Below, piece by piece: positions 33,300-52,228 of a stretch of DNA of 64,000 nt (its first letter is position 1; every line of letters starts with the position of its first letter). The notes below the pieces were generated by a model. That model ran no database searches, was not told the DNA's origin, and worked only from the letters and a program-made list of their open reading frames with translations. The stretch is taken from the NCBI RefSeq assembly GCF_002019705.1, contig NZ_KV917377.1:3569649-3633648 (forward strand), read 5' to 3'. Made by a program: the position numbers and the translations under genes. This DNA is from Shouchella patagoniensis (lineage in GTDB: Bacteria > Bacillota > Bacilli > Bacillales > Bacillaceae_D).

Positions 33300-34018
33300 C
33301 AAACCTATGATATTCAGACCAACGAATATACAACAATTGACCTTCCTGTTACCATCATTGAACAATTTCAACTATCGTCGACTGGAACCATTTATTTACT
33401 TGGTGGGACAGCGACAAAGCCAAACAATATATATAGACAAACGGCAAATGGTTGGGAACATTTAACGGCCATAAGGTATCAGGGGTTGACGAAAATGACT
33501 TGGTTATGTCGAAATTCATTCGGTATCCATCGATGGATCGACTTGAAATTGAAGCATTATACTATGAACCTGCAAAAGACAAAGACAATGGTTACACTAT
33601 TCTCTTGCCTCATGGAGGTCCTCAAGCTGCAGATCTATTAACATTTTCCTCTTGGCAACAGATCTTTGCCTTTGAAGGATATCGAGTCGTGTCCCCCAAT
33701 TACAGAGGTTCTACAAGGTATGGGTCATCTTTTACAAAAATGGTAGAAGGCGATTGGGGTGATGGACCCCGCTATGATGTCATTGCTTGTGTGGAATACT
33801 TAATCGATCAAGGATGGGTGAATCGAGAGAAACTGTTTGTCCTTGGAGCAAGTTATGGTGGGTATATGTCACTCTTGCTTCACGGACGCCACCCCGATTA
33901 CTTTAAAGCGGTTATTGATATTTGTGGTGTTTCGAATTTATTTAGTTTCTCGAGTTCCGTACCCGATTCATGGAAACCAATTATGGAGCAATGGGTTGGG
34001 GGCGAAAGGACGGGATAA
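33300..34018 (+). pseudogene. S9 prolyl oligopeptidase family remnant
   Basis: A frame (TIYLLGGTATKPNNIYRQTA, then WEHLT) runs into another frame near 33460 that encodes an S9 catalytic region: HGGPQAADLLTFSSWQQIFA, the PNYRGSTRYG strand and the nucleophile elbow GASYGGY. It ends at 34018 before the catalytic Asp and His, and the N-terminal propeller is mostly gone. This is a truncated and frameshifted acylaminoacyl-peptidase-like gene. Confidence 0.75.
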
Positions 34019-36887: not shown

Positions 36888-37796
36888 ATGAAAAACAATT
36901 GGATGTATGCACTAATTGTCTTAGCTGGGGGCACGTGTTTTGGCATCTTATCCACGTTTGTCAAACTTGGATATGAAAATGGATTGAATTTAACTCAAAT
37001 TGTAATGGCTCAATTTTTAGCGGGTATCTTGATACTAGGAGGGATGCTTGTTTTTTCTAAAAAACACCACCTTTCACTAAAGACATTACTTGCGTTATTT
37101 GCTTGTGGCGTCCCTACAGGACTTACTGGTGTTTTTTATTATCATTCGCTCCAAACGCTTGATGCGTCTCTTGCTGTCATTTTTTTATTTCAATTTGTCT
37201 GGATTGGTTCTCTTTATGAGTACCTTTTTTCTAGAAAAAAGCCGACTAAAAAACGTATTCTTTCCATTGCAATTTTAATTGGAGGATCTATTCTTGCGGC
37301 TGGTGTGCTGCAATCAACTGTTCAATTTAATTGGATTGGAGCAGCTTGGGCGATGCTTGGTGCATTTTGTTCAGCATTGTTTATGTATATGACTGGGACA
37401 ATAGGGACAACTGTCCCAGTTGTCCAAAAAAGTTTTATCATTTCTATTGGAGGTTTTATAACATCTGGCCTTTTGTTGTTGCCAACTCTGAATAGTTTTT
37501 TTGCTGGGGGAATTCAACCGGCCTTAGTTGGAATCGGTTTGCTCATCGGTTTATTTGGTGTCGTACTTCCGCCGCTGCTTTTTTCTATTGGTATGCCTAA
37601 GGTCGGTTCTGGGCTTGGGGCTATTCTTTCAACAGCAGAACTACCTGTTGCACTCATCTTATCTATTTTCCTTTTGCACGAAACGGTGCGACCGTTACAA
37701 TGGCTAGGGGTAGCCATTATCTTTACAGGTATTGCTATTGGAAATGTTGAATGGAAACAGGTTGGGATAATGTTAAAACAAAAACACGCTAATTAG
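36888..37796 (+). CDS. EamA/DMT family transporter
   Basis: A 302-aa, 10-TM drug/metabolite transporter with two EamA repeats. The start ATG 36888 is 9 nt from AAAGG; an ATG at 36879 overlaps that site. Repeat 1 starts MYALIVLAGGTCFGILSTFVKLGY; repeat 2 ends PVALILSIFLLHETVRPLQWLG. The substrate is unknown. Its last codons (KHAN, stop) lie in a palindromic terminator shared with the convergent gene. Confidence 0.88.
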   Translation: MKNNWMYALIVLAGGTCFGILSTFVKLGYENGLNLTQIVMAQFLAGILILGGMLVFSKKHHLSLKTLLALFACGVPTGLTGVFYYHSLQTLDASLAVIFLFQFVWIGSLYEYLFSRKKPTKKRILSIAILIGGSILAAGVLQSTVQFNWIGAAWAMLGAFCSALFMYMTGTIGTTVPVVQKSFIISIGGFITSGLLLLPTLNSFFAGGIQPALVGIGLLIGLFGVVLPPLLFSIGMPKVGSGLGAILSTAELPVALILSIFLLHETVRPLQWLGVAIIFTGIAIGNVEWKQVGIMLKQKHAN

Positions 37797-37805
37797 CGTG
37801 TTTTT
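37780..37805. terminator. 26-bp perfect palindromic terminator shared by two convergent genes
   Basis: AAAAACACGCTAA is followed directly by its reverse complement. It covers the stop codons of both flanking genes, each of which ends Lys-His-Ala-Asn-stop because the DNA is a palindrome. Confidence 0.85.
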
Positions 37806-39244
37806 GTTGTTTTTTTAGGGCAATTACACCTGATAATAATCCATTTACTGCGAATAGACAAAGGAGCACGGTGCAAAGGAATGCAACGTCAGGGGCGAAG
37901 AGGCGAAACGTATGCCACGGAACACCAAGTAAGTGAGGTATGAATAAAGTTCCTACGATTGTTATAAGAAGCTGAATCCCAGCAAAAACAAACCAAGAGA
38001 TTGGACGTTTGATTGAACCGTAACGAATTTTTAAAAACAGAAAAATAGAACTTATAATAGTGGACAAGACAACTACTGTGACTAGTACAGGTATGCTAGG
38101 CTTTAGTTGAGGGAAATCAGTGAGAGATTCGCCATTAAGAATTTGGATAATGCCCTGTTTTAAAAAGAATAGACCTTCTTCCTCAAGCGCATGGGTTTTG
38201 TTTGTTAAAATTGCGCCGCTCCATCCTGTTTCAGGCAGATAAAAAATTTCATTTTGAAAATGAGGTGTGGAGCCTGAATGCCAAATCATTTCTTCATTCG
38301 TCCCAATATTGGAAAAACGCAAACCGAAACCGTACGATTGGGTTTCATCTCTTGCAAAGAGAGGTTCCTTATACAGCTTTTGCACTAGTATGATCGATAA
38401 AGAAGTCATCATTATAACCACTTAACAAGCTTAAGTATGCCATCATGTCGTTTGCGCTCGCGGCAATATAGCCGTATGGAGCACCGCTATTGTCATACAT
38501 GTCTGGTCCAGGGTATGCTTGCCCAAACCAAGACTCGTATCCAGAGGGGAGCGCGTTGCTATAAGCAGATTGTTTATCTGCTGCCGCATTGTCCATTGCA
38601 AGGGGCGTAAAGATACGTTCTTGCATAAAATTGCTATATGGTTGCCCAGCTATTTCTTCAATAAGTGCACCTAGAAGGATGTAATTGGCGTTGCTGTATT
38701 GATGAATTTCTCCTGGTGCAACAGTTAATTTAAGTGTGGAGACTTCGTGGGCCATTAAACGTATTGCCTCTTTATCGTTTAACCCTCGATCAGATAGCTT
38801 GTAGCCATCGTAACTTCCAAAACCACTTGTCTGACTAAGCAGATCACTAATTGTAATGGCATTTGCTTTTTTGTCTTCAAATGTAAGCCATGGTATTAAG
38901 GTGGTTACAGAATCATCTAAATCAAGAGCGCCATCATCAATAAGAACGGCAATAGCAAGCCCGGTTAAAGATTTGCTTATGGACCCTAATAGAAACGGAG
39001 TATCGAGTTCTACTGGTTTTTGTTCACCACCAGTCACCCCCCATGCATTCGCGTAAAAAAGACTGTCCTCTTTAAGTAGAGCAATAGAAACCCCAGGTAT
39101 ATTTCGTTCAGTCATAAAGCGCTCAACCAATTGAGTAATCTGCTCTTCTTTACTCAATTGTGCTGTAGCTATGTGTGGGAATAGAGGGAATAATAAAATA
39201 TTTATTATGATAAAGGTGCGCAAGACTATTTTCATCTTAGGCAC
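37789..39244 (-). pseudogene. beta-lactamase-family serine hydrolase with C-terminal TM domain, frameshifted
   Basis: The N-terminal 291 codons encode a signal peptide (IIINILLFPLFPHIATAQ) and a class C beta-lactamase/FmtA-like domain with SISK (SxxK) and YSNANY (YxN). The frame is lost near 38385 (stop 38369), and the rest is in another frame: MIWHSGSTPHFQNEIFYLP with an HSG third motif, then four TM segments to 37789. A 1456-nt span, one base over a multiple of three, indicates a single-base indel. An intact form would be a membrane-anchored cell-envelope hydrolase. Confidence 0.8.
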
Positions 39245-39749
39245 CTTGTACTTGCCGCTTTTTTAAAAGGAATAGAGAAAGAATAAAAACGATTAATGAG
39301 ATAACTAAACTTGTTGAGGTTAAGGCTGCATTCCACCAGCTATTGTCTGAAATACGATATATAAGATTGTATTGGTATGAATTTAGGGGATTAAAGAATT
39401 CTGTTAAAGTAAATGCAAACAGCAATTGACAAGCTAAAAATGTGATCACTGAAGTAAGCGAGGTGATCAATATTGGCAGACTTGATGCTATTCTGGACTG
39501 CTGTAATTGGTTACCAGGACTGTGAAGATCAATGCCGCATGCTTCTAAATGTGATTTGGCAAATATCTCTGGTTCTTCTAAATTAGAGAATGAGTCTTCT
39601 CCATTGTCTCGATATTCTTCAAAATGAGAAATGAGTTGCTCATTCACTTCTCTTATTTGAATAGAATCAAGCTCATAGTGTTGGATTTCGGAATTGACCT
39701 TCTCAAGATAGGTTACTTCTTGCTTCGTTAAGTTATTTTTCATTTTCAT
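39237..39749 (-). CDS. DUF1700/DUF1129-type membrane protein, PadR partner
   Basis: A 170-aa protein with a helical cytoplasmic N-terminus (TKQEVTYLEKVNSEIQHYEL) and two TM segments (about residues 91-113 and 140-163). Such proteins are usually encoded after PadR regulators and sense or modulate envelope stress. It overlaps both padR (17 bp) and the serine hydrolase gene (8 bp), so the three form one operon. Function unknown. Confidence 0.65.
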   Translation of the reverse strand: MKMKNNLTKQEVTYLEKVNSEIQHYELDSIQIREVNEQLISHFEEYRDNGEDSFSNLEEPEIFAKSHLEACGIDLHSPGNQLQQSRIASSLPILITSLTSVITFLACQLLFAFTLTEFFNPLNSYQYNLIYRISDNSWWNAALTSTSLVISLIVFILSLFLLKKRQVQGA

Positions 39750-40083
39750 TTACACCCTTCCACCCATTTTCAACTAATAACGAAGAAATATCATTTTGTA
39801 GTTCAAGCCACTCCTCAATTTTTTTATGTAGTCGTTCCTTCCCTTGCTCATTAATCTCATAATATACCCGGGCACGTCCGCTTTCTGTAAAGACTCGATC
39901 TGTTTCAACCCAACCTTGAGTTTTAAGCTTAGTCAGAATTGGATAAATACTTCCAATGCCTTTTAGTTCTAAATTATGTGTTTCCAATTCCTTCATCAGT
40001 TCATACCCGTAACTCTTTTGCTTTGCTAGAATCGCTAATACACACATTTCAAGATGACCTTTTATTAAACTTATTTTATCCAT
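39733..40083 (-). CDS. PadR family transcriptional regulator
   Basis: A 116-aa winged-helix PadR protein: KISLIKGHLEMCVLAILAKQKSYGYELM, then GIGSIYPILTKLKTQGWV and the wing SGRARVYYEINEQGKERL. It probably represses its own operon (DUF1700-like gene and serine hydrolase). A diverged, broken copy lies at 47770-48121, and both copies share TTAAATCAAGTAT upstream, which may contain the -35 (TTGATT on the minus strand) or an operator. Confidence 0.88.
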   Translation of the reverse strand: MDKISLIKGHLEMCVLAILAKQKSYGYELMKELETHNLELKGIGSIYPILTKLKTQGWVETDRVFTESGRARVYYEINEQGKERLHKKIEEWLELQNDISSLLVENGWKGVNENEK

Positions 40084-40160
40084 AAAATAAACTTATCAGG
40101 ATTATATATTTAAATCAAGTATATATTTTATTTATTCCAATTCTTAGTAAGCATACAAAA

Positions 40161-40272
40161 TATATAGAGAATGCAATAGTAGAACGGAATGGAAGGGAAC
40201 TTAATAGCAGGAGCAAATATCTCTGGATTTAAGAAAGTAGCGGACGTTATGATTGCGCAAGGAGTCATTTAA
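40161..40272 (+). pseudogene. glutamate dehydrogenase remnant (internal deletion)
   Basis: Two pieces of a gdhA gene are joined here. 40161-40190 corresponds to YMENAILERM (YIENAIVER here), about residue 55 of GdhA. 40191-40272 matches the last 26 residues (NLIAGANISGFKKVADVMIA, then QGVI and TAA). About 360 codons between are missing. Third-position differences from the intact gdhA at 48260-49612 show an old paralog, not a recent copy. Confidence 0.8.
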
Positions 40273-40420
40273 AAAGAAGATCTCTTGGTTAGTAACGAAG
40301 GACGCAGAATTGAGGGAAAGCTCAAATCTAAAAACCTAATGTATATTTTAAAAATGAAATGGTGAATGGATAAAATCGATCATAAGATAAAAACAATTAC
40401 TGTTCACTAGGAGGAGCAAG

Positions 40421-40909
40421 ATGCAAATTTACGAAGATTGGAATGGTCACAATGTGAAACTAACATGGATGCCAAATCATGTTTTATCATCGGAGAAAGT
40501 CATTACAAGCGTCCATGGACTCTGTCTTTACCAAGGACTTGTTCTTCTCGTGAACATTAAAGGAAGGGGATTTAACTATCCAGGGGGGCACATTGAGGAT
40601 GGAGAATCACCGATAGATGCTTTACATAGGGAAGTATATGAAGAAGGTTATGTAAAAGGAGAGGCTATATATATTGGTGCGATCGAGGTGAGTCATTAAA
40701 ACAACTCTCTATATGAACCAGAAGGGAACTATCCATTCATTGGCTACCAAACCTTTTATCAATTGGAAGTAAAACAGCGGTTGCTGTTTTTGAAGGAGCA
40801 CGAGTCAACAGCTCGCATTTGGATGGAACCTAATCTTGTTTCTTCTGTCATTAACGATCATGCACTTGCAAAAAGGATTGTAAGGGAGTTTTGTAGAGAA
40901 GCTAACTAA
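40421..40909 (+). pseudogene. NUDIX hydrolase gene with in-frame stop
   Basis: ATG 40421 behind AGGAGG. The NUDIX box GGHIEDGESPIDALHREVYE with EEGYV is intact. TAA at 40697-40699 follows EVSH; the same frame continues NNSLYEPEGNYPFIGYQTFY to RIWMEPNLVSSVINDH and TAA at 40907. One nonsense mutation truncates the C-terminal third; the catalytic box is still translated in a 92-aa product. Confidence 0.75.
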
Positions 40910-40942
40910 ATCGGAGACAACCATAATGGCCCTGGTGGTGTC

Positions 40943-41044
40943 ATGAGTATTAGCTTGAAATCTTCCTCTTGGTCAATTTTTAGTAGCAAAAATAAGGAAT
41001 ACAAAGAGTTATTAAACGAAGCGTATAGAGTCATGCTTAAGTAA
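40943..41044 (+). other. 33-codon reading frame, probably a gene fragment
   Basis: MSISLKSSSWSIFSSKNKEY..., in the same frame as the broken NUDIX gene and preceded by further open codons (GDNHNGPGGV). There is no ribosome binding site. It looks like the 3' end of an unidentified gene. Confidence 0.3.
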
Positions 41045-41047
41045 TTA

Positions 41048-41080
41048 AAAAATAAGTCCAGCTATTCTGGACTTATTTTT
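41048..41080. terminator. terminator at the end of the carnitine operon
   Basis: A 14-bp perfect stem (AAAAATAAGTCCAG and its complement), 5-nt loop, T-rich on both strands. It overlaps the last codons of the thioesterase gene. Confidence 0.85.
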
Positions 41081-41540
41081 TGCGTATCCCCATTTGTTTA
41101 TTTGCACTTACAGGCCAAGCCTCTTTAGGTATTATTGGAATTGATGCAATCGCTTTTTCAACAGTATTTGGGAAAGGGGCTGGTCGACCGCTTATCTGAT
41201 CCATTCCCATGACCATTTGTTCACTTGTGGAAATCGTATCTCCGTTATTATTCTTCATTTCAAACCAAAGATGCATCCGTTTTTGGTCAAGATCAAGCAA
41301 GTGAACAAAAACGTACAAAGTTTGACCTTTTTGTGCTTCGGCTAAGTATTTGATATGAGCTTCGAGTGTGAAAATCGTGTAATTTTCTTGATTGCGACCT
41401 ACTTCGTCCAAACCAATCGAATCAATTAACGCATCAAGACTTATGCTAAACGCTTCTGCGTAGGCAGCATCGTTCATGTGACCATTATAATCGACCCATC
41501 TCTCGAAAACTTCACCACTCCAAATAGGCTTATTTCTCAT
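41073..41540 (-). CDS. hot-dog thioesterase, probable betainyl-CoA thioesterase
   Basis: A 155-aa 4HBT-like hot-dog protein with the catalytic VDYNGHMNDAAYAEAFS segment (Asp and Asn/His region at the N-terminal helix). The start is ATG 41540; a TTG at 41546 is an alternative. It overlaps the carnitine dehydrogenase gene. Next to carnitine dehydrogenase and a BKACE enzyme, it is expected to hydrolyse betainyl-CoA to glycine betaine, the last step of carnitine breakdown. The substrate is inferred from the operon. Confidence 0.8.
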   Translation of the reverse strand: MRNKPIWSGEVFERWVDYNGHMNDAAYAEAFSISLDALIDSIGLDEVGRNQENYTIFTLEAHIKYLAEAQKGQTLYVFVHLLDLDQKRMHLWFEMKNNNGDTISTSEQMVMGMDQISGRPAPFPNTVEKAIASIPIIPKEAWPVSANKQMGIRKK

Positions 41541-42495
41541 ATGCAATCAACTTTTCCGATGGCCAGAAACCTTCTTCTTCTAGTAACTGCATGAGTTTGA
41601 TTAAAAAGCGGTCACGACGGTTTTCCATCTCCTGAATAGAGGTTGTACCACTTTGAGCAGCGGTACCTTCAATCACTTTTTGACTTAATTCATCAGTGAG
41701 TTCAGGAGCAACTAACCGTGTCCAAGGCAGCTTTAATGCTGGTCCGAATTGTTCAAGCATATGCTTCATGCCTTCGCTACCCCCAGCGAGATGGAGTGTG
41801 AGGAAAGGACCCATTAGTGCCCAACGTAAACCTGGCCCATAAACAATGGCTTTATCAACTTCTTCTGTTGTAGCAATACCATCATTGACGATATGTAAGC
41901 TTTCGCGCCAGAGTGCTTCCATCAAACGGTCACCAATATGACCATCAATTTCTCCTGACATCATCAAGGGCTTCATATTCATAAGATCGTAAATGTCTCG
42001 CGCTTTCTCCATAAAGTTTATTTCTGTCTTTTCTCCCCCTGCAATCTCAACAAGTGGAATTAAATAAACTGGATTAAACGGATGGGCCACGATGACCCGT
42101 TCAGGATGATTTACGCAATTTTGTTGCAGTACAGTTGGTATATAGCCAGATGTACTTGAGGCAATAATTGCATCCGGTTTTGAAGCAGCATCGACCTGCG
42201 CAATAATCGTTTTTTTTAATTCTTCACGTTCAGGAACGTTTTCTTGAATCAAGTCTGCCTCTGCAACGGCTTCTTCTAATGTTGAAGCAAAATGAAGATT
42301 GCTTTTGGCTGCCTCTGTAGACATGCCGTATTGTTTAAGGGTTTCCCATGTTTCATCTAAAAAGGTGTTTGTTTTTGTCTCTGCTTCTGGTGCTGGGTCA
42401 AATGCGAGTACTTTATGGCCGTTTGCTAGAAAACGTGCAATCCAGCCATTTCCAATTACTCCAGTGCCGATAACGGCCATTGTTTTTTGTGACAT
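41530..42495 (-). CDS. lcdH: L-carnitine dehydrogenase
   Basis: A 321-aa 3-hydroxyacyl-CoA dehydrogenase-like protein: Rossmann motif AVIGTGVIGNGWIARFLANG, ENVPEREELKK, SSTSGYIPT, then VAHPFNPVYLIPLVEIAGGE. The family includes L-carnitine dehydrogenases that oxidise carnitine to 3-dehydrocarnitine with NAD. Flanking BKACE and thioesterase genes make this the most likely role. It is cytoplasmic. Start ATG 42495. Confidence 0.85.
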   Translation of the reverse strand: MSQKTMAVIGTGVIGNGWIARFLANGHKVLAFDPAPEAETKTNTFLDETWETLKQYGMSTEAAKSNLHFASTLEEAVAEADLIQENVPEREELKKTIIAQVDAASKPDAIIASSTSGYIPTVLQQNCVNHPERVIVAHPFNPVYLIPLVEIAGGEKTEINFMEKARDIYDLMNMKPLMMSGEIDGHIGDRLMEALWRESLHIVNDGIATTEEVDKAIVYGPGLRWALMGPFLTLHLAGGSEGMKHMLEQFGPALKLPWTRLVAPELTDELSQKVIEGTAAQSGTTSIQEMENRRDRFLIKLMQLLEEEGFWPSEKLIAYEK

Positions 42496-42526
42496 TGTTC
42501 CACCTCTTTTATGATCGCTTTTTCTA

Positions 42527-43411
42527 TTATTGTGTAAAGGTTTTGAGCTTCAATATCTCGCGTGCTTCTTGGGGAGACATTGGTTCGAGGTTAACGCTGT
42601 TTAAAACGTTGACTGCTTTATCGACTAATTGCTCATTTGTTCCTAGAACCCCTTTTTCAAGATATAGGTTATCTTCAAGCCCTACGCGAACATTACCTCC
42701 GAGCAAGGCTGCTTGAGCTACAATTGGTAATTGCATGCGACCAATTCCAAAAGCAGACCAGCTTCCATCTGTTGCAATTCGGTCACGCATATACGTAATT
42801 GTCTCTACATCAGCTGCAGCCCCCCAAGGGATACCTAGGCAGAATTGATACATTGGGTTCTCATCTATTAAGCCGTCTGCGATTAGTTGATTAGCTAAAC
42901 GTAAGTGACCCGTATCAAAAACTTCCATTTCTGGTTTCACTCCACTTGCCCGAATTAATTTTGCATGTTCTCGTAACCATCCTTCGGGTCCGAGATAGAC
43001 TTGTTCACCGAAATTTAAACTGCCACAGTCAAGCGTGCAAATTTCAGGAAGAAGCTTCCCGACTGGTTCATGCCGTTCTGCTGGTGTTTGGATATCTGTC
43101 CCTGGTCCACCGGAAGTTGGTGTCTCTAAGCTTGGTACAAAGTCACCGCCTCCACCCGCAGTAATATTAATAATGACATCTGTATTTGATTCACGAATTC
43201 GTGTAACTGTTTCACGAAACAGTTCAACATCATGGCTGAGCTTACCGGTTTTTGGATCGCGGACATGAATGTGAGCAATGGCCGCTCCAGCTTTAGCTGA
43301 TTCAATCGCCGAATGAGCAATTTCTTTTGGTGTAACTGGGACATGCGGACTTTTATCGGCTGTATCTCCTGCACCGGTAACTGCTGCTGTAATAATTCGT
43401 TTATTCTTCAT
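42527..43411 (-). CDS. BKACE family 3-keto acid cleavage enzyme (3-dehydrocarnitine cleavage)
   Basis: A 294-aa DUF849/BKACE protein. Start ATG 43411 (MKNKRIITAAVTGAGD). The TIM-barrel metal site shows as AAIAHIHVRDPKTGKLSHD, with VIINITAGGGGDFVP. In this family the enzyme condenses a beta-keto acid with acetyl-CoA, giving acetoacetate and a new CoA ester: here 3-dehydrocarnitine would give betainyl-CoA. It overlaps the regulator gene by 11 bp. Confidence 0.85.
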   Translation of the reverse strand: MKNKRIITAAVTGAGDTADKSPHVPVTPKEIAHSAIESAKAGAAIAHIHVRDPKTGKLSHDVELFRETVTRIRESNTDVIINITAGGGGDFVPSLETPTSGGPGTDIQTPAERHEPVGKLLPEICTLDCGSLNFGEQVYLGPEGWLREHAKLIRASGVKPEMEVFDTGHLRLANQLIADGLIDENPMYQFCLGIPWGAAADVETITYMRDRIATDGSWSAFGIGRMQLPIVAQAALLGGNVRVGLEDNLYLEKGVLGTNEQLVDKAVNVLNSVNLEPMSPQEAREILKLKTFTQ

Positions 43412-43991
43412 GTGTTTGTTTATCCTCCTTATGTGGATCTTCAATCGGTACTACATCAAAAATTTTGCCACTTTCAAAGAAATTAACTAATCGATTTATC
43501 CAATTGTAATAGGCTTTCCAGTCATCAAGTTCTTGGCAGAGTGTATGAAGCCTTTCTTTCACTTCTGGGCTCATGTCTTCAGAATCGAATTGCTCCAACT
43601 TTTGGACGCGATCTCGTAGACGTCTTTCTAATGTCGTATTGCGTCCGACAACTTCTTTCCAATTTGTTGTAAAAAGAGAAATGAACGTTTGTGTATAGTC
43701 GTTCTCTACAGCGTAATGTTCCTTACGGCTCCCTTTAACGAAAACTTTTTCCGCAATATTAAGTGTAATCATTTGGCGCATCACTTGACTCATACGTGTC
43801 TTACTCATACCTGTTTGTTCTGCGAGCTCATCAAGCGTCATTGCTTTTCGATTCATATAGATAATCCCGAGTAGTCTGCCAATAGTGGCGGAAACACCAA
43901 ATGTATCCATGTTATCTGCAATGCGGTCGGCAATTTGATCTTCTGTTGTTTTGATTTCTTCTAGTAGTTTGTCATTTGATATAGAGCCCAT
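43401..43991 (-). CDS. GbsR-type (MarR superfamily) regulator of osmoprotectant genes
   Basis: A 196-aa GbsR/OpcR-like protein with a winged helix (TIGRLLGIIYMNRKAMTLDE, then LAEQTGMSKTRMSQVMRQMI) and a C-terminal helical extension. The start ATG 43991 follows GGGAGG at 6 nt. GbsR proteins bind choline and OpcR represses opu genes. It heads the carnitine catabolic operon and is divergent from opuC, with an inverted repeat in the intergenic region. Confidence 0.85.
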   Translation of the reverse strand: MGSISNDKLLEEIKTTEDQIADRIADNMDTFGVSATIGRLLGIIYMNRKAMTLDELAEQTGMSKTRMSQVMRQMITLNIAEKVFVKGSRKEHYAVENDYTQTFISLFTTNWKEVVGRNTTLERRLRDRVQKLEQFDSEDMSPEVKERLHTLCQELDDWKAYYNWINRLVNFFESGKIFDVVPIEDPHKEDKQTHEE

Positions 43992-44110
43992 TATAAGCCT
44001 CCCTAAAAATTCCTAGTTGTAACTTTATCACGACTTCAAAGAAAAGGAAAAAAACATATAAGGGATAAAGAGAGAGCAAAATGAAGGAATTGTAAGAATG
44101 AGTGGACTCA

Positions 44111-44149
44111 CACTTTGTGCAATTTAAATTGTACAGAATGCACAAAGTG
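44111..44149. promoter_or_regulatory. inverted repeat between the GbsR-like gene and opuCA
   Basis: CACTTTGTGCA (44111-44121) and TGCACAAAGTG (44139-44149) are perfect 11-bp arms around an AT-rich centre holding AATTTAAATT. Good operator candidate for the GbsR-like repressor acting on opuC and/or its own operon. Confidence 0.6.
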
Positions 44150-44242
44150 AATGGATTATATGGAGCTTTCGTTTTGTTTGAGCGGTTTATTATACTTAAA
44201 AAGTTATTTAGACGAGCGATAAAGCGAATGGGAGTGCTGAGG

Positions 44243-45394
44243 TTGTTAGAATTTAAACAAGTGACAAAGACATTTGAAGGCAGCGAAAAGCCTTCTGTAA
44301 ACAATCTAAACTTAAAGATCGAGAAAGGTGAGTTTGTTGTTTTTATTGGACCGAGCGGGTGCGGGAAAACAACTACAATGAAAATGGTAAACCGACTTGT
44401 TGAACCAACTGAAGGTGAAATTTTAGTAAACGGGGTCAATGTTCTGGATCAAGATCCAGTGAAACTACGTCGTTCAATTGGGTATGTTATTCAGCAAATT
44501 GGTCTAATTCCCCACATGACTGTAGGAGAGAATATTTCTCTTGTCGGCTCCTTATTAAAATGGGACAAAGGAAAGCGGGAAGCGAGAGCGAGGGAGTTGA
44601 TCAAGCTTGTAGATTTGCCAAAAGATTACCTTCGCCGGTATCCCCGTGAATTGAGTGGGGGGCAGCAACAACGCATAGGTGTACTTAGAGCGCTTGCGGT
44701 GGACCCGCCGCTTATATTAATGGACGAACCATTTGGAGCGCTTGATCCAATTACGCGTGATGGACTGCAGGAAGAGTTTAAAAAGTTACAAAAAGAAGTA
44801 GATAAGACGATCGTTTTTGTCACACATGACATGGATGAGGCGATTAAACTAGCTGATAAAATTGTCATTATGAACCAGGGTGAAATTGTACAAGTAGGTA
44901 CGCCAGAAGATATTTTGCGTAATCCAGCAAATGAATTCGTTGAGGACTTCATAGGAAAGGATCGCCTTTTGCAAGGGCGCCCGGAAATTACAAGGGTAGA
45001 ACAAATAATGAATCCAAAACCCATTACCATTACGGAAGAAAGTACGTTAAAAGAAGCGATTCAAAAGATGCGTGAAACACGGGTAGACTCATTGCTTGTT
45101 GTTGATGAAGCATTTCACTTGCGGGGATATGTAGATATTCAAATGATTGATTCAAACTATAAAAAACGTAATCAAGTATATGAAGTGATGGATACAGAAG
45201 AATACTCTGTTCATAAAGATAGCTTATTGCGTAATACGATGTATCGCATGCTCCGTAGAGGCAGTGCTTATGTTCCAGTCGTGAGTGAAAACAATAAGCT
45301 TGCTGGAATTGTCACACGTGCGAGTCTTGCGGATATGGTTTACGACACAATCTGGGGCGATAGCAGCAGTGAAGAGACTCCCGGCTGTACTTGA
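44243..45394 (+). CDS. opuCA: glycine betaine/carnitine/choline ABC transporter ATP-binding protein
   Basis: A 383-aa ATPase with Walker A GPSGCGKTT, signature LSGGQQQR, Walker B LILMDEPFGALDP, and two C-terminal CBS domains (VEQIMNPKPITITEE... and YEVMDTEEYSVHKDS) that sense ionic strength in OpuA/OpuC. The start is taken as TTG 44243, with GGGAG 9 nt upstream; ATG 44228 is the next in-frame choice. First gene of opuC; only 19 bp to opuCB. Confidence 0.92.
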   Translation: MLEFKQVTKTFEGSEKPSVNNLNLKIEKGEFVVFIGPSGCGKTTTMKMVNRLVEPTEGEILVNGVNVLDQDPVKLRRSIGYVIQQIGLIPHMTVGENISLVGSLLKWDKGKREARARELIKLVDLPKDYLRRYPRELSGGQQQRIGVLRALAVDPPLILMDEPFGALDPITRDGLQEEFKKLQKEVDKTIVFVTHDMDEAIKLADKIVIMNQGEIVQVGTPEDILRNPANEFVEDFIGKDRLLQGRPEITRVEQIMNPKPITITEESTLKEAIQKMRETRVDSLLVVDEAFHLRGYVDIQMIDSNYKKRNQVYEVMDTEEYSVHKDSLLRNTMYRMLRRGSAYVPVVSENNKLAGIVTRASLADMVYDTIWGDSSSEETPGCT

Positions 45395-45413
45395 TTAAGG
45401 AAGGTGGAAAACG

Positions 45414-46061
45414 ATGGTGGATGCCGTGTTGAATACATTGTCTTCATATGGTTGGGACTTACTTGAGAAAACAGGGGAGCATATGTATATTTCTTTTGCT
45501 GCCGTTTTATTAGGTGTCATTGTTGCAGTTCCAGTTGGTATCATGCTTACGAGAATCCCGAATGCAGCAGATAAAATTATTTCGTTTGTTGGGATCTTGC
45601 AAACCGTTCCAAGTCTAGCGATTCTTGCTTTTTTAATGCCAATTTTAGGCGTCGGTACAACTCCAGCTATCATTGCTCTGTTTATCTACTCCGTTTTACC
45701 AATTTTAAGAAATACATATACTGGGGTAAAAGAAGTAGATTCAGGGCTTTTAGAGGCCGGCAGAGGGATGGGAATGAACAATTGGGAGACAATCCGGAAG
45801 ATCGAACTACCAATTGCCTTGCCTGTCATCATGACAGGTATTCGTTTTGCGACCGTTTATCTTATTGGTTGGGCTACACTTGCCGCTTTTATTGGAGGCG
45901 GTGGCCTTGGTGATCTTATTTTTGACGGGTTGAATTTGTATCAGCCTGAATTGATCATTCTTGGTACAATACCTGCTACTATTTTAGCTTTAATTGCAAG
46001 TTGGTTACTTGGCAAATTAGAAAAAAAATTGACGCCTATAGCTTATAGAGAAACGGCCTGA
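45414..46061 (+). CDS. opuCB: osmoprotectant ABC transporter permease
   Basis: A 215-aa, 5-6 TM permease of the OpuCB/ProW family. Signatures: GVIVAVPVGIMLTRIPNAAD, GILQTVPSLAILAFLMPILGVG, and the EAA loop DSGLLEAGRGMGMNNWETIRKI. Forms the channel with OpuCD. ATG behind GGAAGG. Confidence 0.92.
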   Translation: MVDAVLNTLSSYGWDLLEKTGEHMYISFAAVLLGVIVAVPVGIMLTRIPNAADKIISFVGILQTVPSLAILAFLMPILGVGTTPAIIALFIYSVLPILRNTYTGVKEVDSGLLEAGRGMGMNNWETIRKIELPIALPVIMTGIRFATVYLIGWATLAAFIGGGGLGDLIFDGLNLYQPELIILGTIPATILALIASWLLGKLEKKLTPIAYRETA

Positions 46062-46078
46062 AGGGAGAGAGCTGAACC

Positions 46079-47002
46079 ATGAGAAAACAACTACTTTGTA
46101 CAACTCTCGTATCAAGTCTTGTCCTTTCAGGGTGTGCACTTCCAGGGCTAAGCGGTCCGGCGGATAGCACAATTCGAATTGGTACGTTAGATACAGTAGA
46201 ATCAGAAATTTGGGGTTATACAATTGCCCATATGATCGAACATTATACGGACTTAGAAGCCGAACTCATCACAAATCTTGGATCTACGATCGTGCAGCAT
46301 CAGGCGATGATGCAAGAGGAAGTCGATATTACCGCTACACGATACACAGGGACGGATATCGCTGGAGTGCTCAATAAGGGAGGCGTCACGGATCCAGAAG
46401 AGGCAATGGAAATTGTACAACATGAGTTTAGAGAACAATTTAATCAAACTTGGGGTGACTCATACGGTTTTGAAAATAGTTATACCGTTTCTATTCCTGC
46501 CGAATTTGCAGAAGCAGAAGACATTATCCATGTAGATGATCTTGAGGCATTTGCAGATGAAATGAATTTTGGTGTAGACAATTCTTGGATAAACCGTCAA
46601 GGTGACGGATATCAAGCTTTTACAGAAACTCATTTTGCATTTGGAAATGTCTATCCAATGGCAATCGGACTTGTTTATGAAGCAGCAGCTACTGGTAATA
46701 TGGATGCTGTGCTCGGTTATTCATCCGATGGAAGGGTCGCTGCGTATGATTTGAGGGTACTTGAGGATGATTTTTTTCCTCCTTATGATGCATCTCCGGT
46801 TATTCGGAACGAATTATTTGACGAACATCCAGAATTAGAAGAAGTGCTTGCACGTCTTGCGAATACAGTGACCACGGAACAAATGCAGGAAATGAATTAC
46901 AAAGGCGATGTCGAGTTAGTGAGTCCTTCTGCAATTGCGGAAGAATTTCTTGAAGAAAATAGCTATTTTGAAGATGACGAACAAAATGAGGAGGGCGCAT
47001 AA
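46079..47002 (+). CDS. opuCC: osmoprotectant-binding lipoprotein
   Basis: A 307-aa QAT-family binding protein. The signal peptide ends VLSGC, a lipobox. The mature part begins STIRIGTLDTVESEIWGYTIA, typical of OpuCC/OpuBC, and carries TRYTGTDIAGVL and NMDAVLGYSSDGRVAAYDL. It binds glycine betaine, carnitine or related quaternary amines. The stop TAA shares one base with the opuCD ATG. Confidence 0.93.
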   Translation: MRKQLLCTTLVSSLVLSGCALPGLSGPADSTIRIGTLDTVESEIWGYTIAHMIEHYTDLEAELITNLGSTIVQHQAMMQEEVDITATRYTGTDIAGVLNKGGVTDPEEAMEIVQHEFREQFNQTWGDSYGFENSYTVSIPAEFAEAEDIIHVDDLEAFADEMNFGVDNSWINRQGDGYQAFTETHFAFGNVYPMAIGLVYEAAATGNMDAVLGYSSDGRVAAYDLRVLEDDFFPPYDASPVIRNELFDEHPELEEVLARLANTVTTEQMQEMNYKGDVELVSPSAIAEEFLEENSYFEDDEQNEEGA

Positions 47003-47658
47003 TGGGGGTCTGGGAGCAATTTGTGACGTATGTGTCCCAAAATGGCTTTTACATTTGGGAAGAATTTTACCGCCACTTTTTAATGGCGGCATATGGTGTC
47101 TTGTTTGCTGCGATCGTTTCTATCCCAATTGGCATTCTCATTGCAAAGTACGGGAAGATGAGCGGTTGGGTACTAACTGTTGGAAGTATTATCCAAACGA
47201 TACCTGTACTTGGTTTTATGGCGATGTTAATGGTCTCAATGGGTCTTGGCACAACAACGGTTATTACAACTGTATTTTTCTATTCGTTGTTGCCAATCAT
47301 TCAAAATACGTATGTGGGGATAAAAGGGGTCGATCAAACCGTAATTGAGGCTGCATACGCTTCTGGAATGACGTGGCTACAACTTCTAACCAAAGTCGAA
47401 GTTCCTCTTGCTGTTAGCGTTATTATGGCGGGTATTCGTACGGCATTGGTTGTAGGAATTGGTATTGTTGCAATTGGTACATTTGTTGGCGCTGGTGGAC
47501 TTGGTTCAATCATCGTTAGAGGAACAAACGCAACGGATGGAACTGCAATTATCTTAGCAGGGGCCGTGCCAACGGCATTTATGGCGATTATCGCAGATCT
47601 TGTGTTAGGAAGAGTTGAACGAAAGTTAAACCCAGCCAATAAAACAAGCTCTGCGTGA
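47002..47658 (+). CDS. opuCD: osmoprotectant ABC transporter permease
   Basis: A 218-aa permease paralogous to OpuCB (GSIIQTIPVLGFMAMLMVSM, EAA loop IEAAYASGMTWLQLLTKVEV, GAGGLGSIIVRG). Translationally coupled to opuCC by a one-base stop/start overlap. A terminator follows. Confidence 0.92.
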   Translation: MGVWEQFVTYVSQNGFYIWEEFYRHFLMAAYGVLFAAIVSIPIGILIAKYGKMSGWVLTVGSIIQTIPVLGFMAMLMVSMGLGTTTVITTVFFYSLLPIIQNTYVGIKGVDQTVIEAAYASGMTWLQLLTKVEVPLAVSVIMAGIRTALVVGIGIVAIGTFVGAGGLGSIIVRGTNATDGTAIILAGAVPTAFMAIIADLVLGRVERKLNPANKTSSA

Positions 47659-47665
47659 AGGAGAG

Positions 47666-47696
47666 AAGAACCCGATTTAAAGCGGGTTCTTTATTT
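47666..47696 (+). terminator. terminator of the opuC operon
   Basis: AGAACCCG pairs with CGGGTTCT, 8-nt loop, tail TTATTTG. Confidence 0.8.
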
Positions 47697-47769
47697 GTTT
47701 TTGAGGGTGTAAAAGAATAGATACATTCCTTCCCATGTCGGATAGGGGTTTGTTTTTTGCGATGTTAAT

Positions 47770-48121
47770 CTAGAGGTCAGCATTTTTAACTCTTTTCAAG
47801 CCGTTGTTGTTCAATAACGAAACGATATCCCTTTGCATTTCAAGCCACTCCTCAACTTTTTTCTGAAGGTGCACATGTCTATGTTCATTCATTTCGTAAT
47901 AAACTCTTGCTCGAACGCTTTCAGTTAATACTCTTTCTGTGTTGACCCATCCTTGATTTTTAAGTTTTGTTAGAATGGGGTAAATGCTTCCTATGCCTTT
48001 TAGCTCTAAATGTTGGGCTTCCAGTTTCTTTCATTCATTCATAACCGTAGCTTTTTTCCTTAGACAGAATCGCTAACACACACATTTCAAGATATTCTTT
48101 AATTAAACTTGTTTTATCAAT
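47770..48121 (-). pseudogene. PadR family regulator, broken second copy
   Basis: The frame begins at ATT 48119-48121 where the paralog has ATG (IDKTSLIKEYLEMCVLAILSKEKSYGYE). It then has TGA in place of a Leu codon, followed by one extra A that shifts the frame. After it the paralogous sequence resumes (GIGSIYPILTKLKNQGWVNT ... EEWLEMQRDIVSLLNN) to TAG 47770. Three lesions: start loss, nonsense, +1 insertion. It is clearly related to the intact PadR at 39733-40083 and, like it, sits beside a gdhA sequence. Confidence 0.85.
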
Positions 48122-48259
48122 AATATAAAATTTTCATAAAAATAAAATTAAATCAAGTATATTGTTTTTTTGTCATGAATCAGGTTTACTTCTCTTAAGG
48201 TCGGAAAAGGAATGACCAGAATGTGATAGTAGAATATAGGGTGAGAGGAAGATTGTATA

Positions 48260-49612
48260 ATGGAAGGTAAGGATGCAAAGAAGTATGTGAATGAAGTGAT
48301 TGAAAAAGTCAGAGAACGAAATCCAAACGAACCGGAGTTTTATCAAGCTGTAGAAGAATTGGCAGAGTCCCTTATTCCTGTTTTTGAAAAGTATCCAGTA
48401 TATATGGAGAATGCTATTCTGGAACGAATGGTTGAACCAGACCGTTTGATCATGTTCCGTGTTGCTTGGATTGATGATGAGGGGTGCCCGCAAGTCAACC
48501 GTGGCTATCGCGTTCAATTTAATAATGCAATTGGTCCATATAAAGGTGGGCTCCGGTTTGATCCTTCTGTAAATGCAAGCATTGTTAAATTCCTAGGGTT
48601 TGAGCAGATCTTTAAAAACTCTTTAACGGGTCAAGCAATTGGCGGTGGAAAAGGTGGCGCTGATTTTGATCCGAAAAACAGATCAGATATGGAGATCATG
48701 CGTTTTACGCAAAGTTTTATGAATGAATTGTCAAAATACATAGGACCAAATGTAGACGTTCCTGCTGGTGATATTGGTGTAGGCGGTCGAGAAATAGATT
48801 ACATGGTTGGTCAATACAAACGGTTGCGTGGTGCTTTTGAGAAAGGTGCATTTACTGGAAAAGGCATCGATGTTGGTGGTAGTTTGATGCGGAAAGAATC
48901 AACAGGTTACGGGACTGTCTATTTTGCCCAACGAATGTTAGAAGATCTGGGCAAACAGTTTGAAGGACAAAGAGTAATTGTATCAGGAGCTGGAAAAGTA
49001 TCGATTTACGCAATGGAAAAAGCTGTTGAGTTTGGTGCGAAAGTGGTTGCCTGCAGTGACTCTGGTGGTTATATATACGATGAAAATGGTCTTGATGTTG
49101 AGTTAATTAAACAATTAAAAGAAGTGGAACAAAAACGGATTTATGAATACATTGATAGCTATCCAAATGCACGCTATGAAGCCGAAAAGAGCATTTGGAT
49201 GCTTCCTTGTGATATTGCGCTTCCATGCGCAACACAAAATGAACTTGATGAAGATGGAGCAAAGAAACTTGTCGAGAATGGTGTTTATGCCGTGGCTGAA
49301 GGAGCAAATATGCCTTGTTCCCATGATGCGATTGCTGTTTTTCAAAATAACAAAGTAGCATTTGGACCTGGCAAAGCAGCTAATGCAGGTGGGGTCGCTG
49401 TATCCGCTTTGGAAATGGCACAAAATAGTTCGAGAGTTTCCTGGTCATTTGAAGCAATTGATAACATGTTGCAAGAAATTATGTCTAATATTTATGACAA
49501 GAGTGTAGCTGCTGCAAAAGAATACGGTTCTGAAGGCAATTTAATAGCTGGAGCAAATATTGCTGGGTTTAAAAAAGTGGCCGATGTGATGATTGCCCAA
49601 GGTGTTATTTAG
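48260..49612 (+). CDS. gdhA: NADP-type glutamate dehydrogenase
   Basis: A 450-aa hexameric GDH of the small-subunit NADP-linked type. Visible are the substrate loop GYRVQFNNAIGPYKGGLRF, the catalytic GGGKGGADFDPK (Lys), VPAGDIGVGGREIDYM and the Rossmann segment VIVSGAGKVSIYAMEKA. It aminates 2-oxoglutarate to glutamate. It has no neighbour in an operon; a terminator follows. The upstream region shares features with the padR/gdhA-remnant locus at 40 kb. Confidence 0.93.
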   Translation: MEGKDAKKYVNEVIEKVRERNPNEPEFYQAVEELAESLIPVFEKYPVYMENAILERMVEPDRLIMFRVAWIDDEGCPQVNRGYRVQFNNAIGPYKGGLRFDPSVNASIVKFLGFEQIFKNSLTGQAIGGGKGGADFDPKNRSDMEIMRFTQSFMNELSKYIGPNVDVPAGDIGVGGREIDYMVGQYKRLRGAFEKGAFTGKGIDVGGSLMRKESTGYGTVYFAQRMLEDLGKQFEGQRVIVSGAGKVSIYAMEKAVEFGAKVVACSDSGGYIYDENGLDVELIKQLKEVEQKRIYEYIDSYPNARYEAEKSIWMLPCDIALPCATQNELDEDGAKKLVENGVYAVAEGANMPCSHDAIAVFQNNKVAFGPGKAANAGGVAVSALEMAQNSSRVSWSFEAIDNMLQEIMSNIYDKSVAAAKEYGSEGNLIAGANIAGFKKVADVMIAQGVI

Positions 49613-49725: not shown

Positions 49726-49766
49726 AAAAAGCATAGCCTGTTTTTATGCAGGCTACGCTTTTTTTA
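49726..49766. terminator. terminator after gdhA
   Basis: AAAAGC-a-TAGCCTG pairs with CAGGCTA-c-GCTTTT, tail of seven T. Confidence 0.8.
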
Positions 49767-49976
49767 TTCTTCGCGTACTTTCATACGTGTGACAAAACAA
49801 TCAAACATGATGCGAGCTGCCCTCGCTGTTGTCATGTCTTGGTGGTCATATAATAAATTTACCTCAGGTATATCAAACACATCAACGAGAGGATAGAATG
49901 CATCTAAGAAGGGGCTTTAAGGAATTGCGCCATAAATAGTCCTATTACCATGGTCTAAACAAATCGTCGCCCGCAT
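49764..49976 (-). pseudogene. unidentified 70-codon remnant
   Basis: From ATG 49974-49976 the frame reads MRATICLDHGNRTIYGAIP, TAA at 49917-49919, then SPFLDAFYPLVDVFDIPEVN and LYDHQDMTTARAARIMFDCF to TAA 49764. No ribosome binding site. The sequence is protein-like through the stop, so it is a decayed gene fragment of unknown family. Confidence 0.45.
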
Positions 49977-50506: not shown

Positions 50507-51723
50507 CTAATAATAAATCGTTCCATTTGAAGATGGATGATACCAATTCCAAAGATCAACGTCACCTAACCTCACATAATGAACTTGTTCATTTTCTTGT
50601 AAGCGAAGTAGCTCTTTTGTTGGTCCAGTTACAACTACTCCGTAAGTGTGAACACCGTGTTCTTCCACATACATAAGCCGATCTGATAAACTCGTTTCTC
50701 GATCAATATCGTATAGATATCGCTTTGCTATTTTTTCATTTTCTGTAAGGTAACGCAAACCATCTATAAAGGCTTGTGCTCGTTTTTGACCGTCCCCACG
50801 CTCAAGAATCGAATTTGTATCTAATTGAGAAAAATCAAAAATATTTTGAGCATGGACTCCCCAAATGCCATTCACTGCGCTTAGGTATGGAGACTGGTTC
50901 TCATCGCCGTTCTGTTCTGTACCGGTTTCAACGGCGTACCAAGGAATATTGACATCATAATCTTCCAAAATCGTGTAGACATATCATCAATCTCATATAA
51001 ATCGTCAAATGAAATAGCTAATTCAGCAACTGTTCCTTCTGGAAGGATCTCCAACGCTTCCCATACGTCCTTCATATCTGATCGGTATTTGTCTGAATCA
51101 CTAGGGTAATTATCAATATAGTGAGGATGAAGAAAATAGAGTTGTACATTATACGTACTATCATGCCAATCCCGTTCTACATTCAATTGATTAAAAAATA
51201 ACGTGCCATTAAATTTACCAATTGTTTTATACTCCTTTCCTATTTCTTTCTGAATTTCTGTATTTAAGTCCATTGTAAAAAAGAAGTTTGTTTGCTGATT
51301 AATCCCTTGTAGAAAAACGTTTGGCATTGTCATTTGTGTCGCAGTTTTGAGAACCTGTGCAGTTTTAGTACCGCGACCTCCATCTGGTCCGATTCCAAAG
51401 AAAAGTCCGGTGAAGATACCAGAAGCAATACTAATAATGATAAATAGGCAAAACATTGTAATGGCATTGCTCATCCGATTTTTCCATTTAGCTCTGAAAA
51501 TGAGCTTTTTCTGTGCCTTTGAAGAAAGAGGAACGACATGTTCTGTTGCGTTCTTATAAGAAGCTGCTAGAAAGCTTTCGTTTTGATCTTCGATTGCAGA
51601 ATCTAGTTTATAAGAACATTTAGGACAAGTTTTTAAATGTTCTTCAATATCTCTTTCCTCTAAAGATAAACAAATTACCTCTAAATAATCATTCCACTTC
51701 TTATTCACTTCATTACAATCCAT
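50507..51723 (-). pseudogene. zinc-finger anti-sigma factor with large extracytoplasmic domain, frameshifted
   Basis: ATG 51723 has GGAGG 8 nt upstream. Residues 1-45 form a zf-HC2-like anti-sigma domain (MDCNEVNKKWNDYLEV...HLKTCPKCSY), then a TM segment (MFCLFIIISIASGIFTGLFF). The extracytoplasmic part is cut near 50978: one frame ends at 50881, and the true continuation (VYTILEDYDVNIPWYAVET...) is in another frame to 50507. 1217 nt implies a net one-base loss. The sigma gene before it is broken too. Confidence 0.8.
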
Positions 51724-52228
51724 GAAGCATTCCTCCATTTAAGTGTTGGATTTCTTTTCGAGCGCGGGAAATCATAATTTTTACTTGAGCAAGAGTTAAT
51801 CCCAAAATATCTGCAATATCTTGATAAGAAAATTAATAATAGCTTTTTAATAATAAAGCTTGACGTTTTTTAAACCGCAGTGCGTTAACAGCTGTAATCC
51901 ATATGTCCTTCGCTTCTTGATTGAGATATTCATCTTCAGCACTTTTTATATAATTAAGGATTCCTTTAGAGGTAAGTAGATCGTGATCAAATAAAACGAA
52001 CCGTTTGTCTTTTCGTATTTAATCAATAAATGTATGGTACGCTACTTTAAACAACCAAGGTTTAATTGCTTCATCCTTATAACTATCCAAAAAAAAGTAG
52101 GCTCGGTAAAACGTTTCTTGCATAATGTCTTCAGCAAGGTTTATATTTTTGCACATGGAAAAAAGGTATTGATATAAGTCATCGGCATAAAGAATATAGA
52201 TTTCTTCTAATGAGTGTTTTTTGTCCAT
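51713..52228 (-). pseudogene. ECF RNA polymerase sigma factor with two in-frame stops
   Basis: ATG 52228; 172 codons in one frame. Region 2 is seen as LYQYLFSMCKNINLAEDIMQ ETF (split by spacing only here) and region 4 as FSYQDIADILGLTQAQVKIM. TAA occurs at 52019-52021 (after AYHTFID) and at 51833-51835 (before FSYQDI). The frame is otherwise intact and overlaps the anti-sigma start by 11 bp, as in functional pairs. Two nonsense mutations, no indel. Confidence 0.85.

Follow-up and report, generated by a model that had tools for sequence, protein, structure and literature searches.

A decayed gdhA copy beside padR in Shouchella patagoniensis suggests hidden paralogy of glutamate dehydrogenase genes between close relatives

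The window analyzed here, a 64,000-nucleotide stretch of the Shouchella patagoniensis genome (assembly GCF_002019705.1, contig NZ_KV917377.1, positions 3,569,649 to 3,633,648 of the forward strand), contains two pairs of a gene for a PadR-family regulator (padR) and a gene for an NADP-type glutamate dehydrogenase (gdhA). The pairs are direct repeats about 8 kb apart, and in both the two genes are divergent. At position 1 padR is intact and gdhA is a remnant (gdhA-1); at position 2 gdhA is intact (gdhA-2) and padR is a pseudogene (padR'). A self-comparison of the window at an expect value (E) of 1e-8 yielded no repeat of this sort besides this pair. The original prediction, made from the letters of the window, had described both pairs in much this form and had read them as an old duplication with complementary loss.

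As predicted, padR at position 1 (39733..40083, minus strand) is open; it encodes 116 amino acids and matches PF03551 (E 1.7e-20). The second gene of its operon encodes a HAAS-like protein of 170 amino acids (39237..39749, minus strand), and the third a serine hydrolase (PF00144; 37789..39244, minus strand). A frameshift near 38.4 kb breaks the hydrolase gene into open reading frames (ORFs) at 38369-39244 and 37789-38421, and the counterpart of the gene in S. clausii (L101) is a single ORF of 490 amino acids; position 1 is thus eroding as well. The gdhA remnant (40132..40272, plus strand) consists of two fused pieces, 141 bp in all, of which piece 1 (40132-40188) covers approximately codons 39-55 and piece 2 (40189-40272) approximately codons 425-450 and the stop. 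The internal loss amounts to about 370 codons, close to the 360 or so first estimated. Absent from that estimate was a second lesion, the loss of the promoter and of roughly the first 38 codons, which stops about 6 bases short of the padR operator described below. The fusion junction lies in ACGG-ATGG-like letters, and because such letters flank the missing part on both sides in the gdhA of a close relative (G006), the internal loss is likely to have been a deletion across a short direct repeat.

At position 2, gdhA-2 (48260..49612, plus strand) is open, encodes 450 amino acids and scores 734 bits against NF006929, above the cut-off of 536. We found no other intact gene of this type in the genome, where the next full-length match is 29% identical. 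On the minus strand, padR' (approximately 47781..48121) bears all three predicted lesions: ATT stands where padR reads ATG, a TGA interrupts the frame at 48035-48037 and there is one extra base nearby. At columns conserved in at least 80% of relatives, padR' alone departs nine times, padR alone once and both four times, as expected of a decayed copy. The pairwise ratio of nonsynonymous to synonymous substitution rates (dN/dS) between padR and padR' is 0.14, which suggests that padR' was probably under selection for much of its life and decayed late. No remnant of the HAAS-like gene was found next to padR', where 125 of 300 shuffled sequences equalled the observed score. GC content at third codon positions (GC3) is 0.293 in gdhA-2 and 0.256 in padR, compared with 0.307-0.379 in the nine other genes measured.

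The two loci match each other at 73% over 431 bp of padR and intergenic DNA (E 1e-77), and piece 2 of the remnant matches gdhA-2 at E 7e-18. Piece 1 matches gdhA-2 at just E 3e-6 and, because an opposite-strand match scores equally, its homology is not beyond chance by this comparison alone; the gdhA of G006, by contrast, gives piece 1 a match of 91% over 57 bp (E 1.7e-16). In a tree of 25 sequences, padR and padR' are sisters, with ultrafast bootstrap (UFBoot) support of 97 for amino acids and 100 for nucleotides. The approximately unbiased (AU) test rejects regrafting padR' onto any of the 23 other terminal branches (p ≤0.009), to which the regrafts were confined, and the Shimodaira-Hasegawa (SH) test retains one of the 23 (p 0.062). 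For the tree alignments, sequences were placed on a reference by pairwise nucleotide alignment, and several padR rows are gapped or carry X in their variable parts. Since they are sisters, padR and padR' share one origin, contrary to a descent of the two copies from unrelated lineages; together with the alignment match, this sisterhood supports a common origin of the two padR-gdhA loci.

A scan of genome contigs identified 25 padR loci in relatives, 21 of them close (65-74% identity) and four distant (L060-L063, 29-39%); the distant ones were omitted from the padR tree. In all 21 close loci, padR is followed by a HAAS-like gene and then by a serine hydrolase gene, and operons of this kind occur across many genera. 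None of the 21 has gdhA nearby in the 12.8-20.3 kb of DNA examined per locus. The padR-gdhA pair, which the original prediction had treated as a unit, is therefore not a conserved or functional one.

The letters TTAAATCAAGTAT, which had been noticed between the genes of both pairs, belong to a PadR-type operator shared by the 21 close padR loci. The near-palindrome TATATACTTGANNNAANTATATA precedes padR in each of these, perfectly in 11, with one mismatch in five and with two in five, at 19 bp from the padR start in 20 loci and at 20 bp in one; we regard it as a predicted operator to which PadR would bind. At position 1 the site (40103..40125, minus strand) fits the pattern perfectly, lies 19 bp before padR and is the sole place in the genome with two or fewer mismatches. 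The operator-like site before padR' (48141..48163, minus strand) is mildly altered, with three mismatches, of which the right arm holds two. This lends only mild support to the decay of padR', because the symmetry of its arms (7/9) is inside the 6-9 range of the relatives despite three mismatches against their zero to two.

The nearest relative among the 12 other Shouchella genomes examined is G006, as judged by the amino acid identity of gdhA (87.7%; 83.0% for G001) and of a carnitine dehydrogenase (95%; 78% for the next genome). From EamA at 36.9 kb as far as the paa genes at 63.5 kb, contig C57 of G006 retains the gene order of the window, including the order of the Nudix region, a carnitine-type gene block and the paa genes. 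Next to EamA, at position 1, G006 retains the terminal part of the hydrolase gene, with gdhA coming after it. The G006 genome, which is 86% complete, yielded neither a padR nor a HAAS-like gene of this type. Because the hydrolase tail remains beside gdhA, it is most likely that the common ancestor carried the padR operon at position 1 and that G006 lost it. Position 2 is occupied in G006 by a DinB-family gene. The G006 gdhA carries one frameshift, which is probably a sequencing error, as EamA, BKACE, MarR and at least two transporter genes are also broken or short in this draft of 290 contigs. By eye, we observed GGTGAGGAGCTCAGGATTA-like tandem repeats right after the G006 gdhA (L093, approximately 2480-2650 on the reversed strand); the window after the gdhA remnant has at most degenerate traces of them.

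The original prediction had called the duplication old from its silent sites, and the synonymous divergence (dS) bears this out. Between padR and padR', dS is 1.20 (bootstrap 0.73-3.7). Between gdhA-2 and the G006 gdhA it is likewise 1.20 (0.91-1.61), as a single event would give, compared with 0.31-0.69 for 18 flanking genes (10 + 8) of the window genome and G006. The copies hence diverged before the lineages of the window genome and G006 split. The nonsynonymous divergence (dN) of gdhA-2 to G006 relative to that to G001 is 0.70 (0.076/0.109), and the same ratio is 0.20-0.39 (mean 0.28) in eight flanking genes.

The remnant sides with G006. In trees built with 14 of the 32 non-window genomes that have a full-type gdhA match (E 1e-187 or better), its 43 codons group with the G006 gdhA with UFBoot support of 98 for amino acids and 99 for nucleotides. 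The nucleotide AU test rejects grouping the remnant with gdhA-2 (p 0.014, 0.021); in the AU and SH tests on the remnant the other parts of the topology were set by hand. At sites where G006 and gdhA-2 differ, the remnant matches G006 at 16, gdhA-2 at four and neither at five (sign test p 0.012). It is thus fairly well supported by these comparisons that the remnant is orthologous to the G006 gdhA, and the lone gdhA of the window genome is probably not a true orthologue of the one in G006.

To account for these observations, we favour an old padR-gdhA duplication that was resolved differently in two Shouchella lineages, leaving a hidden paralogy, and we give this history a probability of about 0.58. 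In an ancestor shared by the window genome and G006, the operon of padR, HAAS-like and hydrolase genes would have been placed next to gdhA in divergent orientation, and the padR-gdhA stretch would have been duplicated nearby, in direct orientation, before these two lineages split. With no operon behind it, padR' may have had little to regulate, and one of the two gdhA genes would have been spare. In the window lineage, gdhA-1 would then have been deleted in two parts (the promoter with the 5' end, and the internal codons) and padR' would have decayed, while gdhA-2 and the padR of position 1 were kept. In the G006 lineage, where the position-2 unit is absent, gdhA-1 would have been kept and the padR operon deleted down to the hydrolase tail. 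The gdhA gene left in each genome would thus be a paralogue of the one in the other, by divergent resolution. Of the complementary loss first proposed, the common origin of the copies stands; simple loss within one genome does not, as the divergence predates the G006 split and it was the other gdhA that survived in G006, where the padR operon disappeared.

Several observations weigh against this history. A dS near 1.2 approaches saturation. Within the 43 codons of the remnant, piece 1 holds the signal for G006 (11 sites to one) and piece 2 hardly any (five to three). The dS of the remnant is 0.61 (0.31-1.09) to G006 and 1.14 (0.57-unbounded) to gdhA-2, so that the intervals overlap, and on the same codons the dS between gdhA-2 and G006 is 0.91. 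Grouping the remnant with gdhA-2 is kept by the amino acid AU test (p 0.057-0.062) and, for one tree, by the nucleotide SH test (p 0.054). Whether G001 or gdhA-2 is nearer to the G006 gdhA receives weak support in the trees (UFBoot 68 and 56). When G006 was searched with short words for residues of the position-2 unit, the only matches beyond the two flanks were 10-25 bp long. Finally, dS between gdhA-2 and the G006 gdhA ranges over 0.86-1.99 across six 75-codon windows with no converted stretch, which would be odd if the copies had long shared one genome.

The last three of these points suit the main rival explanation, a transfer, which we consider possible but less likely. Once separated from G006, the window lineage would have gained padR'-gdhA from a similarly arranged locus in an unsampled Shouchella relative; its own gdhA-1 would then have been lost and the incoming padR' would have decayed, so that gdhA-2 would be a xenologue and not a paralogue. 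A transferred unit need have left no trace in G006 nor any conversion between the copies, the branching of gdhA-2 near the G001 split fits a foreign source, and so does the low dN/dS of a padR' that has no operon behind it here. Yet the incoming DNA must have inserted 8 kb away from the resident copy, as a direct repeat of it, and the arrangement demanded of the donor is seen in none of the 21 close padR loci. Moreover, no gdhA nearer than those of G006 and G001 turned up among 41 genomes of the family (its own included), the top-ranked plasmid match reaches just 65%, and the GC3 of gdhA-2 is only slightly under that of the nine other genes, although this last point is weak evidence.

A recent duplication within the window lineage, followed by fast complementary decay, is a simple form of the original prediction; it would explain why both units stand in one genome in one orientation, and the amino acid AU test agrees with it in keeping the remnant with gdhA-2. 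We nevertheless hold it to be very improbable: the dS of 1.20 exceeds that of the flanking genes, the remnant sides with G006 in the trees, at the differing sites and in the nucleotide AU test, and gdhA-2 shows no faster rate, its branch being shorter than that of the G006 gdhA (0.13 against 0.22 for nucleotides). Least credible of all is that the padR operon was captured twice beside gdhA, or that the assembly is at fault. Such operons are indeed scattered over many genera, which is what separate captures would draw upon, but padR and padR' are sisters and both have the same orientation to gdhA; a divergence of 27% is too large for an assembly error.

Between the two units lies a carnitine-type block of eight genes (41073..47658), namely a thioesterase-like gene, a carnitine-dehydrogenase-like gene, a BKACE gene, a MarR-like gene and four ABC transporter genes. 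The BKACE gene matches PF05853; the best model for the carnitine dehydrogenase scores 394 bits, under its cut-off of 414. The eight genes occur in identical order in G005, G008, G001 and G002, without gdhA in the 18 kb examined. Carnitine dehydrogenase is present in eight of 13 Shouchella genomes (the window genome included), and in the five other genomes that have both genes it lies away from gdhA (G001, on another contig, G003, G005, G008 and G012); the whole block was checked in three of these five. In G006 the block sits just after gdhA, between gdhA and position 2. Its place in the two genomes opens a further reading, in which the block arrived and padR-gdhA was doubled in a single step. 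A circle or donor fragment bearing both the block and a diverged padR-gdhA would have integrated through one crossover with the resident padR-gdhA, so that the block came to be flanked by two diverged direct repeats. We regard this as unlikely.

Other genes around the two loci are also broken or incomplete. A Nudix gene at 40421-40930 is interrupted by a stop, and G006 has this DNA with no matching ORF of at least 80 amino acids. At 33452-34018 the window has a 188-amino-acid portion of an S9 peptidase (PF00326), homologues of which (595-603 amino acids) lie near gdhA in G005, G008, G012 and G003. Between gdhA-2 and a gene at 50.0 kb there is a short minus-strand fragment (49760-49935) with no match at the same place in G006; an arginase-like identity considered for this fragment near 49.8 kb was rejected, the match being a weak one at its end only (Pfam E 0.1). 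At 50507-52228, an anti-sigma-like gene spread over two overlapping frames and a 69-amino-acid piece of sigma-70 region 2 apparently form a decaying pair; these sigma and anti-sigma genes (50.5-52.2 kb) have no counterpart at the same place in G006. Conversely, a 210-amino-acid ORF before the paa genes of G006 matches no window ORF of at least 80 amino acids; this ORF and the sigma and anti-sigma genes are the two differences from C57 noted outside positions 1 and 2.

As to the proteins, the HAAS-like protein of the window matches nothing in Pfam or NCBIfam, and its homologue in one close locus (L044) matches DUF1129 at E 1.1e-5 and 25.5 bits, under the cut-off of 29.1. DUF1129 is grouped with HAAS in a published account (PMC11237479). 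The HAAS-PadR-like winged helix-turn-helix dyads described there resemble the present operon in that padR is paired with a HAAS-like protein, here in 21 of 21 close loci; the operon differs in its third gene, which is a PF00144 serine hydrolase. The gdhA-2 product agrees by its score with the NADP-specific glutamate dehydrogenases of NF006929, and we saw nothing unusual in it.

A single-copy gdhA in two close and largely colinear genomes would normally pass as a pair of orthologues. The remnant indicates that the pair is probably non-orthologous, so that trees or dates built on it would mislead, and at this locus the hidden paralogy can be recognized from a scar of 141 bp. Divergent resolution of duplicates, or hidden paralogy, is a known kind of event, and the literature that we found on it concerns mostly eukaryotes. 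Our locus is like the known cases in that the duplicates are old, different copies were kept in sister lineages and the survivors appear to be orthologues. It differs in that we infer, for this locus, the presence of both units in the ancestor, and in being a small bacterial locus where a readable remnant of the lost copy is still in place. It is thus a clear example of an ordinary process and, as such, of modest interest.

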